The notes below the pieces were generated by a model that ran no database searches, was not told the DNA's origin, and worked only from the letters and a program-made list of their open reading frames with translations. From assembly GCA_016779995.1 (NCBI GenBank), contig JADHMO010000005.1, positions 64,099-128,098 of the forward strand: 64,000 nt of DNA, read 5' to 3'. Made by a program: the position numbers and the translations under genes. This document shows positions 2,803 to 11,866 of this stretch, piece by piece. Position 1 is the stretch's first letter, and each line of letters opens with the position of its first letter. Origin of the DNA: Flavobacteriales bacterium (GTDB lineage: Bacteria > Bacteroidota > Bacteroidia > Flavobacteriales > UBA7312).

Positions 2803-5800
2803 ATGAAAAAAATTATCCTCCTTATCTCTGCATTATCTATAATGCAAATGTGTGTGTATGCTCAAAATGTAGGCGACACAATTGTCATCGAATCTTTTAA
2901 CTATTCTCAAACCTACGGCGTTAACCAATGGTCTCCAGGTATTAGAGATACAATTATTGATTTTTCAATTTTACCAGACCAACCCATCGAAAAAGTGTTG
3001 ATGTTGTACAACATGCGTTGTAAAAACAATTTAGTTTCCAATTCGAGTAATAGAGATCAAGGTTGTGGTGAGTGGGATTCGTCTTGCAATACTTACTTAC
3101 ACGACTCAACACGAACAGACTCAGTTACATATACTCACCCTAATTATGTCATTTCAAACTTTAGTGGGACAAATTTTTCTTACACCTCACAAGAAATTTA
3201 CGACTTATACCAATATGAAGAAAACACTGTAACACTTAACAATATTTTATCAGAAAACAGTTACGACCTCCTCAATGGTAATACTAGTTCAAACTCTACT
3301 TTGAATGGCTCTAATAAATCAGGAAAATCACAATACTTATATACAGCGAATGAGCTTATAGCAGCTGGATTTTCTGCAGGCGAAATAGATGGAATTATAG
3401 TTAATGCCAATAACTCTGGCACTATACATTTTCTAAGGCTAAAATTGAAATCAACAAGCGACAATGAAATTTTAGCTAACAACCCAATAACAGATGGGCT
3501 TAGCCAAGTATTTTTTGATGATGTGTTTAACTTTCAAGTTGGTGAAAATAGACTTCAATTTGAAACCCCATTTGAATGGAATGGCACAGATAATCTTATC
3601 GTTGAATTCTCCTTTACAAACTCAACACCAACAAATGACATACAGCTAACAAGTACGCCTTCTAACAATTTAGGCATATTTACGAATAATGGCTATCATA
3701 TCAATACATCTTTTGGTGGAAATGCAGAAATTCCAATTGACAACCTATCTTCTATTCAAAATGAAATTACCGTTTCTTTTTGGGCAAATGGAATTCCAAA
3801 TTTAATGCCTACAAATACTTCCATTATTGAAGCTATTGATAGTAATGGTCAAAGAACATTAAATTTTCATTTGCCATGGAGCAACAGCAATGTATATTTT
3901 GATTGCGGTAATTCAGGAAATAATTATGATAGAATTTTAAAAGCTGCATCTGAAAATGAGTTTGAAGGACAGTGGAATCATTGGGCGTTTACTAAAAACA
4001 CTAATACTGGATCTATGAAAATATACCTTAACGGTATAGAATGGCATAATGGAAATGATAAAACAAAACCTATAAACATTAACAAAATTATTTTGGGTGC
4101 TGATAAAAATGGCAATTTAAACTACAAAGGACTTATTGATGAACTAAGAATTTGGGATAAAGAACTATCACAAACAGAAATCAATGCTTGGAAAAATATC
4201 AATGTTGACAACACACATCCCTACTACTCAAACCTCAAATCCTACCTAAAAATAGATGAAGGCAATAGCACCCAACTAACAGATGAATCCAATAGCAATA
4301 TCATAGCTGAAGGAAATTCACCACATTTTTGGAACTTTATAAGAGGAAATGAGCTCAATCGCTTTTTTAGTAATGACAACAACAGACCTAACATTACACT
4401 TTTAAGAGGCGATTACGATTTATCTGTTAATCAAACAAGCGTATATGACTCTATAATGAGACAACCTAATTTGGTAAAAAACTATACAATAACACAAAAT
4501 ATTGGCACTCAAATACACGATGAAGTTGAAGTCGTTTCTGAAACTTTCCTTTGGGAAGCAACTGAACAAAATGTGTATGATGCAATAACGGGCAATATAT
4601 TATCAAGCAATACTATTTCTAGCGAGGGAACATACACCATAACCGACCTAGAATACCAAAGACGTTTTCCTTCAAAAATTGAGATTATGTCTTTTGTAAC
4701 CCCCTATGGCTTAGGTCTAGATTTAGGTCCAAAAGGTAAAACATGGACATTTGATATGACCGACTTTTTACCCATTTTTAAAGGGCAAAAAAGAATGACT
4801 ATGGAAAGAGGGGGGCAATGGATGGAGGATATGGATATAAAATTCTTATTTATTCTAGGGACACCTCCTAGAGATGTTATCGGATTTAATCAAATATGGC
4901 GACCTGAATCTAGGTCTTACATACATCTAGAAAGTGACCGATTCTTTGCTCCTAGAGAAACTAAATTAAATCCGTTAGCTAAATATTTTAAAATACGTTC
5001 TTCTATAACAGGACATGGTCAAGAAGGTGAATTTATAGGAAGACAACACTACATAAATATCAATGGTGGCAGTAGTGAATTTAATTGGCAAGTATGGAAA
5101 GAATGTGCTGAAAATCCTATCTATCCTCAAGGTGGAACATGGATTTACGATAGGGCTGGATGGTGCCCTGGCAGCCCAACGGACATTCAACACTACGATA
5201 TTACACCTATGGTTAGCCCAGGTCAAAATGTAACTATAGATTACGGCGTATTAAACGCTAGCGGAACTTCCAATTATATAATAAACAATCAATTAATTAC
5301 CTATGGAGATATCAACTTTGATTTAGACGCAAGTATTGTCGAGGTACAAGAGCCATCAAACCGAGTTGAATTTAGCCGTAATAATTCCATTTGTCACACT
5401 CCAAAAGTTGTAATAAAAAATACAGGAAAAACTATTCTAACCTCACTAAAGATTAAATATTGGGTAAATAACTCTACCAACCCTCTTACCTACAATTGGA
5501 CAGGTAACTTAAAATTTGATGAAAGTGAAGTGGTAAGCTTGCCATCATCATTAGCCTTATGGTCAAGTGTAAATGCAAGTGATAATGTTTTTTATGCTAG
5601 TGTTGAATCGCCTAATGGAGGTCAAGATGAATATGAGTTTAATAATACATATAAATCAAAATTTGATATTCCAGAGGTAATGCCTGAAGAGTTAGTCATA
5701 TTTTTTAGAACGAATAATGCAGCCTATGAAAGTAGTTGGAAAATACTAGATTCAGAAAATAATGTCATTTTATCAAGAGATAATATGAGTAATGGAACAT

Positions 5801-6261
5801 TATATAAAGATACCATAGAATTAGCCTATGGATGCTACACATTTAGAGTCGATGATTCAGGTGATGATGGTATTGACTTTTGGGCTAATAATGACGGAAT
5901 TGGTTTTTGTCGATTGTATAAAAATGGAGGGTCACTGGTCAAAAATTTTGAACCAGACTTTGGAGACAACATCAATTTTAAATTTACGGTTGGCTCACCC
6001 TTAACTTACGAACAGTTAAATATATCGGAAGATATTTCATTGTATCCAAACCCCACTAGAAATAGCTTTACAATTGAAGGAGAGGATATCGAACAAGCCG
6101 ATATCATAATCTTGGACAATCTCAGTCGAAAGGTAAATCTGCCTTTAGACAGAGGTTATAACAAAGTCAAATTTGATTCAAAAAGCTTAGCAAAAGGAAT
6201 GTATCTCATTCAAATTAAATTCAACAATAGTATTCAAACTAAAAAATTAATTATTGAGTAA
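2803..6261 (+). CDS. Secreted PNGase F-like peptide:N-glycosidase with LamG insertion and T9SS sorting domain
   Basis: 1152 residues. A signal peptide ends near Ala20. PNGase F hydrolyses the glycosylamine bond of N-glycans on asparagine. Motifs comparable to the Elizabethkingia enzyme are visible: GCGEWD at 87-92 (its EWD aspartate, D60), FVTPY at 631-635, Glu668 in MTMERGG (candidate for E118), EFIGRQH from Glu743 (E206) and DRAGWCPG at 783-790. Between EWD and FVTPY lie about 540 extra residues. These include a beta-sandwich module seen in many T9SS proteins (about 178-275), with YTANELIAAGF near its start, and a LamG/concanavalin-like domain (about 300-465) with typical GLIDELRIWDKELS. 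The last ~80 residues form a type A T9SS sorting domain starting at ISLYPNPTRNSF. It is probably exported and surface-bound. Substrate and activity are inferred from motifs only. Confidence 0.85.
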   Translation: MKKIILLISALSIMQMCVYAQNVGDTIVIESFNYSQTYGVNQWSPGIRDTIIDFSILPDQPIEKVLMLYNMRCKNNLVSNSSNRDQGCGEWDSSCNTYLHDSTRTDSVTYTHPNYVISNFSGTNFSYTSQEIYDLYQYEENTVTLNNILSENSYDLLNGNTSSNSTLNGSNKSGKSQYLYTANELIAAGFSAGEIDGIIVNANNSGTIHFLRLKLKSTSDNEILANNPITDGLSQVFFDDVFNFQVGENRLQFETPFEWNGTDNLIVEFSFTNSTPTNDIQLTSTPSNNLGIFTNNGYHINTSFGGNAEIPIDNLSSIQNEITVSFWANGIPNLMPTNTSIIEAIDSNGQRTLNFHLPWSNSNVYFDCGNSGNNYDRILKAASENEFEGQWNHWAFTKNTNTGSMKIYLNGIEWHNGNDKTKPININKIILGADKNGNLNYKGLIDELRIWDKELSQTEINAWKNINVDNTHPYYSNLKSYLKIDEGNSTQLTDESNSNIIAEGNSPHFWNFIRGNELNRFFSNDNNRPNITLLRGDYDLSVNQTSVYDSIMRQPNLVKNYTITQNIGTQIHDEVEVVSETFLWEATEQNVYDAITGNILSSNTISSEGTYTITDLEYQRRFPSKIEIMSFVTPYGLGLDLGPKGKTWTFDMTDFLPIFKGQKRMTMERGGQWMEDMDIKFLFILGTPPRDVIGFNQIWRPESRSYIHLESDRFFAPRETKLNPLAKYFKIRSSITGHGQEGEFIGRQHYININGGSSEFNWQVWKECAENPIYPQGGTWIYDRAGWCPGSPTDIQHYDITPMVSPGQNVTIDYGVLNASGTSNYIINNQLITYGDINFDLDASIVEVQEPSNRVEFSRNNSICHTPKVVIKNTGKTILTSLKIKYWVNNSTNPLTYNWTGNLKFDESEVVSLPSSLALWSSVNASDNVFYASVESPNGGQDEYEFNNTYKSKFDIPEVMPEELVIFFRTNNAAYESSWKILDSENNVILSRDNMSNGTLYKDTIELAYGCYTFRVDDSGDDGIDFWANNDGIGFCRLYKNGGSLVKNFEPDFGDNINFKFTVGSPLTYEQLNISEDISLYPNPTRNSFTIEGEDIEQADIIILDNLSRKVNLPLDRGYNKVKFDSKSLAKGMYLIQIKFNNSIQTKKLIIE

Positions 6262-7950: not shown

Positions 7951-9363
7951 TTATTCAAAAAATTCTTTTTTAAAATTTATCAAATGTAACTTTTTTGTTG
8001 TTCTTGTAAGGGCGGTATACAACCATCTAAAGTATTCTTTGCTTAGCATATCAGAAGTAAAATAGCCCTGTTCAACAAAGACATTTTCCCATTGTCCCCC
8101 TTGAGATTTATGGCACGTAATAGCATATGCAAATTTGACTTGCAAGGCGTTAAAATATGGGTTTTGCTTAATCTCTTTATTACGCTGAGCTCGTTTTGGG
8201 ATATCTGCATAATCTTTAGCCACCTCATCGTACAATTTTTTATATTCTTCGTAAGTCATAGCGGGAGTCTCTGATGTTAAGGTATCTAATAAGACTATAC
8301 ATTCTAAATTTTCTTCATCTGGATAATCTACTAAGCGAACAGATATTCTTGCAAATCTGAAATCATACAACTCATTGATTTCATAAATTCTCATAACCTC
8401 AACCATATCACCATTGGCAATAAAGCCAGCCTTACTTCCCTCAGGTAACCAAAAATAATTATTCCTTACCACCATCAAAAAATCGCCGGTAGATATATCA
8501 TCTTCTAATCCTCTAATGCGGGCTCTTATTTGTTGATTGTATAAATTAGCTCTTTTGTTGGAACGGCAAATTACAACTGTCCCTTCTACACCACTAATAG
8601 AATAGGCGTCTTCCAAAGCTTCTTGGATATCCATTCCAACATCTAATCTCACCACCTCGCTATTGCACTTGACATGTGGTAAGTCAAAATCATTAGCACT
8701 AATTTTATCTCGTAAATGAGTAGCGTTTTCTAAAACCATAGAAGATGATTGTTGCCGAACAACTTGAGTCAATTCTGCAGAATAAACATCTTTTCTGTAG
8801 GTAATGCCTAATAAATTTTCATCGAGAGCAGGACTAATATCAAGGTTTACAGGAGGTAATTGAGCTGTATCACCAATTAAAATTAACTTGCACATTACGC
8901 CAGAATAAACGTACTCAATTAAATCGTCAAGTAGCACCCTCCCACCAAAACCTTTATCCGAGGCATCAGGAATCATTGAAGCCTCGTCTACTACAAAAAT
9001 AGTATTGGTATGCTTATTTTCTTGTAAAGTAACATAGGTATTACCTTGAGAATTGGTACGCATCCAATAAATTTTTTTGTGAATCGTAAAAGCACTTTTC
9101 TTTGAGTACACAGACAATACTTTAGCTGCTCGACCTGTTGGCGCTAGTAAAACTACTTTTTTACCTACAGACCATAAACTATTTATTAGTGAACTTACAA
9201 GGGTTGTTTTGCCTGTCCCAGCATAACCTTTCAGTAAAAACAAACTGTTGGAAGATGAATTTTCTACAAATTCGGATAACTGATTTATAAGCTCGGATTG
9301 TTGAGAGGTCGGCTCAAAAGGGAATTTATTATTTAAAAGTTGGATTAATTTTGTGCTATTCAT
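7951..9363 (-). CDS. RecD-like superfamily 1 DNA helicase
   Basis: 470 residues. An ATP-dependent helicase of the RecD/UvrD C-terminal type, presumably acting on DNA during repair or recombination. Visible are the Walker A motif GYAGTGKTT at 46-54, motif Ia (VVLLAPTGRAA), the Walker B-like FVVDEASMI, LILIGDTAQLPPV (motif III), and near the end AITCHKSQGGQW (motif V) and LYTALTRTTKKL (motif VI). This is far shorter than RecD2 (about 720 residues) and lacks its long N-terminal HhH region. No recB or recC partner is nearby. In Bacteroidota this short form is usually annotated only as an AAA or RecD-like helicase. It is transcribed away from the 9447 gene from a shared 83-base region. Confidence 0.9.
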   Translation of the reverse strand: MNSTKLIQLLNNKFPFEPTSQQSELINQLSEFVENSSSNSLFLLKGYAGTGKTTLVSSLINSLWSVGKKVVLLAPTGRAAKVLSVYSKKSAFTIHKKIYWMRTNSQGNTYVTLQENKHTNTIFVVDEASMIPDASDKGFGGRVLLDDLIEYVYSGVMCKLILIGDTAQLPPVNLDISPALDENLLGITYRKDVYSAELTQVVRQQSSSMVLENATHLRDKISANDFDLPHVKCNSEVVRLDVGMDIQEALEDAYSISGVEGTVVICRSNKRANLYNQQIRARIRGLEDDISTGDFLMVVRNNYFWLPEGSKAGFIANGDMVEVMRIYEINELYDFRFARISVRLVDYPDEENLECIVLLDTLTSETPAMTYEEYKKLYDEVAKDYADIPKRAQRNKEIKQNPYFNALQVKFAYAITCHKSQGGQWENVFVEQGYFTSDMLSKEYFRWLYTALTRTTKKLHLINFKKEFFE

Positions 9364-9446: not shown

Positions 9447-10064
9447 ATGAATAGAAAAACAACACAATTAATACTTTGGCCCGTTATTATAATATTAGCT
9501 TGGCTAGTATACAGAAGTCCAATCAGTTTGAAAGAATTTCAGGAAGAAACTAACTTCCGTAAATCCGCAGTTATTCAGGATTTAAAAGATATTCGAACTG
9601 CACAAATAGCCTTTAAAGACAAATACAGAGTTTATGCTGGTGATTTTAACAGCTTATTGTCTTTTGTAAAAAATGATTCTTTAGCAGTTGTAAAGGCTAT
9701 CGGCGAAACTCCTGACTCTCTAACTGAAGACCAAGCACTTATGGCTGGAATAATAAGTAGAGATACTGTATTTGTGCCAGTTTATCAAACTATTTATAAT
9801 CAAGATTATTTAGATACTAGAGATAATAGATTTCCTTTTGATTTAGAAAAGTTATCAATGGTGCCTTTTTCTGATGAAACGTTTAGTATAGAATCAGGAA
9901 CTATCGAAAAAGGTAAAGTTGTCGTTCAAGTATTTGAGGTATCTACAACTTTTGGTACTTTCCTTAACGGATTAGACGCTACAAACAAAGGAATTGACTT
10001 AGACAATACCTTAAGAGTAGGCTCTATGTCAGACGCATCAATCAATGGAAACTGGGGCGAATAA
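9447..10064 (+). CDS. Membrane-anchored pseudopilin-like protein of unknown function
   Basis: 205 residues. One N-terminal membrane helix (about 7-22), then a helical stretch leading to IRTAQIAFKDKYRVYAGD (49-66). This resembles the pilin pattern in which the N-terminal helix is followed by AQxAYxxxxGxY and the start of a small globular head. There is no prepilin-peptidase cleavage site at the N-terminus and no downstream disulphide loop, so it is not a classical type IV pilin. The remaining residues are acidic and beta-rich. The stop overlaps the next gene (DUF3822) by 20 bases, which suggests translational coupling. Similar unnamed proteins sit next to DUF3822 in other Flavobacteriales as far as I recall; I do not know a described function. 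Confidence 0.7.
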   Translation: MNRKTTQLILWPVIIILAWLVYRSPISLKEFQEETNFRKSAVIQDLKDIRTAQIAFKDKYRVYAGDFNSLLSFVKNDSLAVVKAIGETPDSLTEDQALMAGIISRDTVFVPVYQTIYNQDYLDTRDNRFPFDLEKLSMVPFSDETFSIESGTIEKGKVVVQVFEVSTTFGTFLNGLDATNKGIDLDNTLRVGSMSDASINGNWGE

Positions 10065-10881
10065 ACCAAATCATTCTCTAATTGATACAAAATCCTTAGA
10101 ATTGCAATCTATTAAAGATTGTCATTTATCCATTCAAATTGGCTTGAATGGATTTTCTTTTTGCATAAGAAATAGCGCAGAAATTTTAGCTTTAGAATCG
10201 TATAAAGATTCATTGTCTCAACTTGAAAAAAGTATAGAAAAAAACAAGTGGTTATCTCAAGAGTATGCTTCAACAAACATCACTATTAGCACTAAAAAGT
10301 ACACCTTAGTACCTGCCTCGCTTTACAAAAATGAGGATAGAAAGAAGTACTTAGAATTGAATCATATTAGAACAGAACAACTAGATAGTTTAGCAGATGA
10401 AGTTAAACCCATAGGAAGTTATGCCGTTTACGGAATATCCAAAGCTGAACAAGACATCATTACAACTTTCTTTCCTAAAAGTAATTTAAAACACTTCAGT
10501 TCAATACATCTTCCTAATATGTTAGCCCAACATAAAAATAGTGAAGGTAAAACTATGATTGTCAATGTTGATTACAAGCAAATGCACATTACAGTCATTG
10601 ACCATTCGAAACTCTTATATTTCAATGTATTTAACTATAAGACAGCTCACGATTGCATCTACTATATACTATTTGTTTGCGAACAATTGGAATTAAACCC
10701 TGAACATATTTTACTGGAATTGATGGGCGATGTTAAAAAAGACTCCGAATTTTATGAGTTAGCCTATACTTACGTACGCCATGTCAAGTTTGCAAAACGA
10801 AGTGTTAATTTAAGTCCAAATATAGATTCTATTTTAGAACACGAGTATTACACACTTTTACACCAACACCTGTGCGAATAA
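10045..10881 (+). CDS. DUF3822 family protein (actin-like ATPase fold, PilM-like)
   Basis: 278 residues. The start of the mature fold, LSIQIGLNGFSFCI, and the later strands KTMIVNVDYKQMHITVID are characteristic of DUF3822. From memory, a structure of a Bacteroides member showed an actin/Hsp70-like ATPase fold, the same fold as the type IV pilus protein PilM. Canonical phosphate-binding glycine loops are not obvious here, so nucleotide binding is uncertain. The protein appears cytoplasmic, without signal peptide or membrane helix. The ATG lies inside the preceding pseudopilin-like gene; no other Met occurs before residue 170, so this start is well supported. It overlaps rsmD by ten bases. Confidence 0.8.
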   Translation: METGANKPNHSLIDTKSLELQSIKDCHLSIQIGLNGFSFCIRNSAEILALESYKDSLSQLEKSIEKNKWLSQEYASTNITISTKKYTLVPASLYKNEDRKKYLELNHIRTEQLDSLADEVKPIGSYAVYGISKAEQDIITTFFPKSNLKHFSSIHLPNMLAQHKNSEGKTMIVNVDYKQMHITVIDHSKLLYFNVFNYKTAHDCIYYILFVCEQLELNPEHILLELMGDVKKDSEFYELAYTYVRHVKFAKRSVNLSPNIDSILEHEYYTLLHQHLCE

Positions 10882-11408
10882 TTGGCGGAAAATATAAAGG
10901 TAAATCCATAGTTGCTCCAAGAAGTTTACCCGTCAGACCAACAACAGATTTTGCTAAAGAGAGTCTATTTAATATACTCAACAACTCCATAGACTTTGAA
11001 GAAATTAAACTTTTAGAACTTTTTGCTGGAACAGGAAATATTGGCTATGAATTTGCCTCCAGAGGTTGTCCACAAATTACTTCTGTTGACCTCGACTTTA
11101 ATTGTATTCAATTTATAAAAAGAACCAATAAAGAATTGGGCTTACACCATAAAGTCATTCGATCCGATGTCTTTAGGTTTATTAAGTCCAATAAGGAAAA
11201 ATACAATTTCATATTCGCTGACCCTCCATATAACCTCGAAAGGATAAAAGATATTCCTAAACTTATTTTTTCTAAAGACGTTTTAGAGAACGAAGGAACA
11301 TTAGTGATTGAGCATGATAAATACACAGACTTTAGTGATAATGATTATTTTAAAAATGTACGTCAATATGGTCGAGTAATGTTTAGTTTTTTTAACTTTA
11401 ACGCATGA
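10872..11408 (+). CDS. rsmD: 16S rRNA (guanine(966)-N2)-methyltransferase RsmD
   Basis: 178 residues. It methylates G966 of 16S rRNA in the assembled 30S subunit using S-adenosylmethionine. The N-terminal signature MRIIGGKYKGKSI, then RPTTDFAKESLFNIL, the SAM-binding LELFAGTGNIGYEFASRG (about 48-65) and the catalytic motif FADPPYNL (the DPPY of N-methyltransferases) are all present, and the length is normal. The start is GTG at 10872, the only start that keeps the conserved RIIGG beginning. It overlaps the DUF3822 stop by ten bases and shares ATGA with coaD. Confidence 0.95.
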   Translation: MRIIGGKYKGKSIVAPRSLPVRPTTDFAKESLFNILNNSIDFEEIKLLELFAGTGNIGYEFASRGCPQITSVDLDFNCIQFIKRTNKELGLHHKVIRSDVFRFIKSNKEKYNFIFADPPYNLERIKDIPKLIFSKDVLENEGTLVIEHDKYTDFSDNDYFKNVRQYGRVMFSFFNFNA

Positions 11409-11866
11409 CAAAAAAAATAGCAGTTTTTCCTGGTTCCTTTTCTCCTTTCACAAAAGGACATCAGTCCATTGTGAATAGAGCCCTACCTCTTTTCGATGAA
11501 ATTATAATTAGTATAGGTATTAATTCATCTAAAAATGATTACTTCTCCATTCAAGAAAAAGTGCAATGGATTGAAAATGTATTCGCTAAAGAAGACAAAG
11601 TAAAAGTAATGAGATACGAAGGGCTGACTATTGACCATTGTATCGCCGTAAAGGCTAATTATATCCTTAGAGGTTTGAGAGATTCTCACGATTTTAAATA
11701 TGAAAAAGGAATAGCTCAAATGAATCATTCTATGCAAAATAACATAGAAACTATCTTTATTATAACAGAAGCCAAATACTCACACATCAGCTCAACATTA
11801 GTAAGAGATATTATCAAAAATGGTGGTGATGTAAGTCAATTTGTTCCTGAAGAAATCAATCTTTAA
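11405..11866 (+). CDS. coaD: Phosphopantetheine adenylyltransferase
   Basis: 153 residues, normal for the family. It makes dephospho-CoA from 4'-phosphopantetheine and ATP, the fourth step from pantothenate to CoA. Visible are the nucleotidyltransferase TxGH motif in FPGSFSPFTKGH at the N-terminus, LRGLRDSHDFKYE in the middle and the ISSTxxR motif in SHISSTLVRD near the C-terminus. It begins within the rsmD stop (ATGA overlap) and its last four bases overlap the convergent NUDIX gene. Confidence 0.96.
   Translation: MTKKIAVFPGSFSPFTKGHQSIVNRALPLFDEIIISIGINSSKNDYFSIQEKVQWIENVFAKEDKVKVMRYEGLTIDHCIAVKANYILRGLRDSHDFKYEKGIAQMNHSMQNNIETIFIITEAKYSHISSTLVRDIIKNGGDVSQFVPEEINL

Follow-up and report, generated by a model that had tools for sequence, protein, structure and literature searches.

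In the genome of a marine Flavobacteriales bacterium, two overlapping genes encode a pair that very probably consists of a pilin-fold membrane protein, P1, and a PilM-derived protein, DUF3822 (P2). With a probability of roughly 60%, P1 and DUF3822 are an ancient subassembly of type IV filament or competence machines that has been kept after the loss of the motor. The fold and homology of the pair are well supported, and they give an evolutionary identity to DUF3822, a Pfam domain found in a large part of the class Bacteroidia, as well as to its unnamed partner. The pair has not been previously described in the literature searched, in which no mention of DUF3822 was found.

Organization of the locus

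The window is the whole stretch of 64,000 nucleotides that was analysed; its coordinates are used throughout, P1 being the product of the ORF 9447-10064 and P2 being DUF3822. The features of the locus are the following.

9447..10064, + strand: P1, pilin-like single-pass membrane protein of 205 aa, no Pfam family (ORF, AF2 model, VIA-align, phylum-wide homologues)
9468..9512, + strand: hydrophobic transmembrane core of the long N-terminal helix of P1, residues ~8-22 (sequence; alignment and VIA-align register)
9600..9644, + strand: AQIAFKDKYRVYAGD of P1, residues 52-66, end of the pilin alpha-1 helix (MYKLDN..YP in GspG) (family alignment; hhalign)
10020..10055, + strand: GSMxxxxxxGNW, conserved C-terminal motif of P1, residues 192-203, partly within the DUF3822 overlap (alignment; GspG register)
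10045..10064, no strand assigned: P1/DUF3822 overlap, 20 nt, +1 frame (ORF coordinates; similar overlaps across families)
10045..10881, + strand: P2, DUF3822 (PF12864), 278 aa, actin-like fold of the PilM/FtsA type, nucleotide motifs degenerate (Pfam, AF2 model, VIA-align, hhalign)
10872..11408, + strand: rsmD-like 16S rRNA methyltransferase, conserved neighbour (PF03602, E 1e-37; synteny)
11405..11866, + strand: coaD-like adenylyltransferase, conserved neighbour (PF01467, E 1.7e-15; synteny)

The ORF coordinates confirm what a preliminary description of this DNA had reported, namely a 205-residue protein with an N-terminal membrane helix whose last 20 bases are also the start of DUF3822: the latter begins at the ATG at 10045, and 20 bases serve both reading frames. 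The start codon of DUF3822 falls on the bases that encode the GNW end of P1, so that part of the overlap is inherent in the P1 C-terminus; +1-frame overlaps of -14 to -23 nt recur across several families of the order, which suggests translational coupling. The dN/dS values versus near relatives, 0.05-0.12 for P1 and 0.11-0.15 for DUF3822, indicate purifying selection on both, which are therefore real and constrained genes.

The order P1-P2-rsmD-coaD runs through the GTDB phylum, and this synteny supports the earlier proposal of an ancient, conserved housekeeping block; the rsmD-like and coaD-like neighbours are probably not a functional part of the pair. On the other side, a RecD-like helicase gene (7951-9363) is divergent from P1 and separated from it by 83 nt. 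Further upstream, the region 2803-6261 encodes a secreted-looking protein of 1152 aa whose C-terminal region resembles a type IX secretion sorting domain (YPNPTRNSFTIEG...KKLIIE), and this sorting-like C-terminus suggests a putative type IX secretion system (T9SS) in the window species.

P1 and the pilin fold

In the AF2 model of P1 (pLDDT 88.7, pTM 0.77) a helix spanning residues 3-60 is followed by a second helix (67-76) and by a beta head. In the VIA-align comparison of this model, the first twelve ranks are taken exclusively by type IV pilins and pseudopilins with Z from 7.2 to 4.1, among them PilA4 (Z 7.2), Vibrio GspG (3gn9; Z 6.9, 2.9 A, 91 residues), CofA, TcpA, and PilA1, and the next row falls to Z 3.1. 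The structural register, in which model residue 32 corresponds to GspG residue 26, equals the register read from the sequence. In particular, the family alignment of 49 homologues has pilin spacing: residue 28, a proline in about half of the alignment, lies 28 residues ahead of the Tyr/Phe of the YK motif, like P22 of GspG, and is followed by Y-K-x-x-N-G-x-Y and, at the C-terminal end, by GSM......GNW. In the family alignment A1, G192, G201, and N202 are invariant and W203 is nearly so; the C-terminal motif resembles the GspG C-terminus and matches it in the VIA-align register.

A Z of ~7 would not convince alone, and the best Foldseek match, a type IVb pilus, is weak (E 0.07); the case was carried by VIA-align, and the pilin fold is assigned because the top rows are unanimous, a gap lies below them, and the sequence register agrees. 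The (pseudo)pilin-like nature first read from the membrane helix is thus borne out, and the fold search, which had been named as a possible refutation, placed P1 among pilins and pseudopilins and not in an unrelated family. The PilN-like role also envisaged for P1 is not supported, as the protein is better matched by a pilin head than by PilN. In fact, when the profile of P1 from outside Bacteroidia was compared with 12 T2SS/T4P proteins, E. coli GspG was the best match (hhalign probability 72.6%) and the other eleven remained at or below 3.5%; PilN (HofN), PilO (HofO), GspM, and GspC were thereby rejected as relatives.

The prepilin-peptidase motif (G-1, hydrophobic +1, E5) was found by motif scan in none of 111 P1 homologues, and residue 11, the equivalent of E5, is Trp in the window P1 and Trp or Ile among homologues; therefore P1 is pilin-like and not a cleavable pilin. 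Searches of Pfam and NCBIfam with P1 gave no significant match, and the PDB sequence search nothing useful: HTH_11 and DUF4835 (Pfam) and IF-3 (PDB) were weak matches under threshold and were discarded. Pilin-family matches in Pfam/NCBIfam were limited to weak T2SSG/Pilin_GH matches in 3 of 30 distant homologues. The P1 heads are acidic, with a median net charge of ~-2. A distinctive form occurs in one genus (f11 g21; L081:1418-3133, L082:1483-3213, L083:2205-3941), whose P1 proteins of 572-579 aa keep the GNW end and carry an insert of ~350 residues, partly coiled-coil-like, that separates the N-terminal helix region from the C-terminal head.

DUF3822 and the actin-like fold

The window protein belongs to PF12864 (E 1.9e-56, 191.5 bits; curated cut-off 24.9), and it is related by sequence to the solved protein BT_3980 (PDB 3hrg, E 1.3e-15), which is also the best VIA-align match of its AF2 model (pLDDT 94.3; Z 28.2). 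The model matches Thermus PilM from the PilM-PilN complex (2ych) with Z 16.6 and 3.7 A over 249 residues, Myxococcus PilM (3jc8) with Z 16.3, FtsA with Z 16.0, and GspL and MreB with Z of about 11. The predicted structure thus has a PilM/FtsA-type actin-like fold over the whole chain, in support of the actin/PilM-like fold that the preliminary description had named for this family, and PilM and FtsA are tied, the modelled structure alone being insufficient to separate them. No sequence match to PilM or FtsA was found directly with the window DUF3822 itself. A published DALI search lists 3HRG as a distant neighbour (Z 7.4) of the pilus protein PilO2 (PMC3984277).

The PilM-like nucleotide pocket proposed as a check does not appear in the motifs: the N-terminal DxG motif is present in 1 of 66 DUF3822 members and the second in 0 of 66, and the figures for the PilM-like P2 outside Bacteroidia are 2/37 and 1/37. 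Both groups have lost the DxG motifs, and an ATP-driven action as a PilM is therefore improbable for either of them.

Counterparts outside Bacteroidia

When 345 genomes from across the GTDB phylum were searched with the P1 profile, 143 yielded relatives, some of them in classes other than Bacteroidia. P1 from these other classes is 150-195 aa long, ends in SASWE or similar, and is homologous to the Flavobacteriales P1 (hhalign E 7.8e-18). Directly downstream of P1, outside Bacteroidia, lies a protein of ~300 aa, here called P2x, followed by rsmD and coaD. Its profile finds PilM in the PDB (3jc8, E 6.9e-18; 5eox, 3.6e-10; 2ych, 4.5e-8) and reaches FtsA (7q6g) at E 0.26 only. Pfam PilM_2 matches 18 of 37 P2x members and NCBIfam pilM about half of the 37, and P1-adjacent members exceed the Pfam cut-off. 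DUF3822 is in turn linked to P2x by hhalign (96.4%, E 1.1e-9), and the two occupy the same slot ahead of rsmD-coaD. It is therefore well supported that P2x is related to PilM by sequence and that DUF3822, through this homology chain, is a shortened PilM relative. In one non-Bacteroidia genome that also has a PilM-like P2, a strong partial DUF3822 match (8e-46) lies on a separate contig (G381:C31:118126-118539) and is possibly a contamination.

Distribution of the pair

P1 is present in 10/10 genomes of the window's family, in 132 of 246 genomes of the order (single query), and across the phylum; hence the P1/DUF3822 observation is more than chance. The co-occurrence test that had been proposed gave a one-sided answer. 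P1 without DUF3822 is almost never observed: within Bacteroidia, each of the 34 P1-carrying genomes also encodes DUF3822, which in one case was detected through the iterated profile only, and outside Bacteroidia P2x is absent in 9 of 109 P1 genomes. The strict co-occurrence fails in the other direction, as 51 of 85 sampled Bacteroidia genomes have DUF3822 without detectable P1, including the majority of the Flavobacterium and Weeksellaceae-like genomes as well as several other families, and outside Bacteroidia the Flavobacteriales-based P1 profile finds nothing in at least 50 of the genomes with P2x, possibly in part through its sensitivity. P1 depends on P2 more than P2 on P1. In the sample of 345 genomes, 100 from outside Bacteroidia have both P1 and P2x, adjacent and on the same strand in 99. 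A distance-correlation test gave a partial r of 0.31 for P1-P2 versus 0.27 for P1-rsmD, i.e., no coevolution signal beyond rsmD. At one locus (L194; genome G484, family f51) a P1 homologue is followed by an unrelated-looking ORF of 574 aa that replaces P2 and rsmD; P2x is also absent from other f51 genomes.

ComEA and the motor ATPases

In 28 of the retrieved loci comEA, encoding a ComEA-like helix-hairpin-helix protein with TIGR00426 and comE matches, lies directly upstream. The order comEA-P1-P2-rsmD-coaD is that of the families f26, f28, f30, f44, and f48, which we take to be Ignavibacteria-like and related families. Four loci have the order grpE-dnaJ-comEA-pilM-rsmD-coaD without P1 (L229, L231, L232, and L233), with a 4-nt overlap of comEA and the pilM-like gene in L229 and L232. 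The genomes of families with comEA beside the pair or beside P2 have full PilB/PilT-type ATPases, and full motors are found in most genomes that carry P1-P2 outside Bacteroidia. In Bacteroidia, comEA was not found beside the pair. The window genome has a single HHH_3 match, and this lies within a 639-aa frame, which is not enough to establish a ComEA partner for the window species.

The T2SSE profile for the PilB/GspE ATPase detected nothing in the 10 genomes of the window's family and scored in 14 of 14 controls, which agrees with the earlier remark that this lineage lacks obvious type IV pili; strong T2SSE matches in the Bacteroidia sample are confined to three genomes.

Proposed role and alternative explanations

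In the proposed mechanism, P1 and DUF3822 would be two subunits of an inner-membrane subassembly akin to those of type IV filament and competence machines. P1, which lacks a prepilin-peptidase site and therefore keeps its N-terminus, should stay in the membrane as a bitopic protein instead of polymerising as a processed pilin. PilM docks on PilN in type IV pilus machines, and by analogy DUF3822 may dock on the short cytoplasmic N-terminus of P1; a physical pairing of the two is slightly favoured. P1 would supply the connection to the periplasm, and the pair could anchor or align a periplasmic structure. PilM is a competence protein in Thermus (2ych). Since the pair is encoded with ComEA in full-motor genomes, its ancestral role would most likely have been DNA uptake or the anchoring of a competence pilus, uptake being the most economical choice because of comEA and of the competence function of Thermus PilM. 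In Bacteroidia the motor would have been mostly lost and the pair, or DUF3822 alone, retained. As a role of the pair, DNA uptake is doubtful. The acidic P1 heads are unlike what is expected of DNA-binding minor pilins and count against it. Riemerella is a competent member of the Weeksellaceae. The annotations in Table 1 of a Riemerella transposon screen for transformation genes matched neither DUF3822 nor a pilin-like gene, which also counts against uptake, the screen being not saturating (PMC8459023).

The subassembly reading itself has against it the 51 of 85 Bacteroidia genomes with DUF3822 and no detectable P1, the P1-P2 correlation that does not exceed that with rsmD, the structural tie of PilM and FtsA, the weak Foldseek result for P1 (E 0.07), and the Bacteroidia loci without comEA. 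Some of these points favour a pair of the FtsA/FtsN kind, in which DUF3822 would be an actin-like cytoplasmic scaffold that binds the cytoplasmic tail of a bitopic membrane protein and acts in envelope growth, in division, or in another envelope machine, and P1 would look like a pilin only because a small beta head follows a long helix. FtsA and PilM score alike on the DUF3822 model (Z 16.0 versus 16.6), P1 is a bitopic protein whose short N-terminus is cytoplasmic, the pair lies among housekeeping genes, and DUF3822 persists without P1. This explanation is nevertheless quite unlikely given that the P2x profile finds PilM at 6.9e-18 and FtsA at 0.26, that the P1 profile matches GspG with the pilin rows of VIA-align clear of the rest, and that the same genomes hold, besides the P2 gene, PilM_2 matches of 410-490 aa, presumably the size of FtsA.

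The families that have DUF3822 without P1 (Flavobacterium, Weeksellaceae-like, and several others) and the unspecific rate correlation would also suit conserved neighbours that do not interact, DUF3822 having a separate function, e.g., in the T9SS or the gliding envelope of Bacteroidia, and P1 being an independent membrane protein. This is unlikely, considering the rarity of P1 without P2 (0/34 in Bacteroidia, 9/109 outside), the 99/100 adjacency across distant classes, and the recurring overlapping frames, which suggest translational coupling. A cryptic working type IV filament with a motor too divergent for the T2SSE profile would be in line with the full motors of most pair-carrying genomes outside Bacteroidia; it is very improbable, as the profile gives 0/10 in the window's family with all 14 controls scoring and as P1, having the prepilin site in no member, cannot be a processed filament subunit. 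The preferred reading of a retained subassembly keeps from the preliminary description, which had proposed a reduced pilin- or PilM-like module, the folds, the old synteny, and the absence of a motor, and gives up the PilN-likeness, the nucleotide motifs, and the strict co-occurrence.

Such a subassembly indicates that part of a type IV filament machine is older than the split of the phylum and survived motor loss, and it makes testable either DNA uptake by Bacteroidota without type IV pili or a PilM-like function without a pilus. A broader and rather improbable possibility is a phylum-wide motorless device for DNA uptake or the envelope, in which a pilin-like protein kept in the membrane would be combined with a pseudo-ATPase derived from PilM and, in some classes, with ComEA; if true, it may account in part for the transformation of Bacteroidota that have no type IV pili.

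Comparison with known systems

P1 shares with GspG/EpsG, the major pseudopilin of type II secretion, and with the type IV pilin PilA4 of Thermus the long alpha-1 helix, in which a proline occupies the P22 position, the short next helix, the beta head, and a GNW-like C-terminus (Z 6.9-7.2); it differs from GspG and PilA4 in the absence of a cleavable prepilin leader and of E5, in a larger head, and in its gene, a single copy beside rsmD not encoded with gspE/F/O. DUF3822 is like PilM of type IVa pili in the actin-like fold (~250 residues aligned, Z 16.6), whereas it is shorter (278 aa), has lost the DxG motifs, and is encoded with P1 and rsmD-coaD and not with pilNOPQ. Actin-like domains of T2SS/T4P machines also occur in the cytoplasmic domain of GspL (EpsL, Z 11.4) and in PilO2/BfpC; GspL and BfpC bear their own membrane segment, whereas DUF3822 shows none. 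FtsA has the same actin subfamily fold as DUF3822 (Z 16.0), although it is longer and the P2x profile matches it at E 0.26. The closest known structure is that of BT_3980 (3hrg), a protein previously without assigned function that belongs to the same Pfam family as the window DUF3822 and matches it with Z 28.2.
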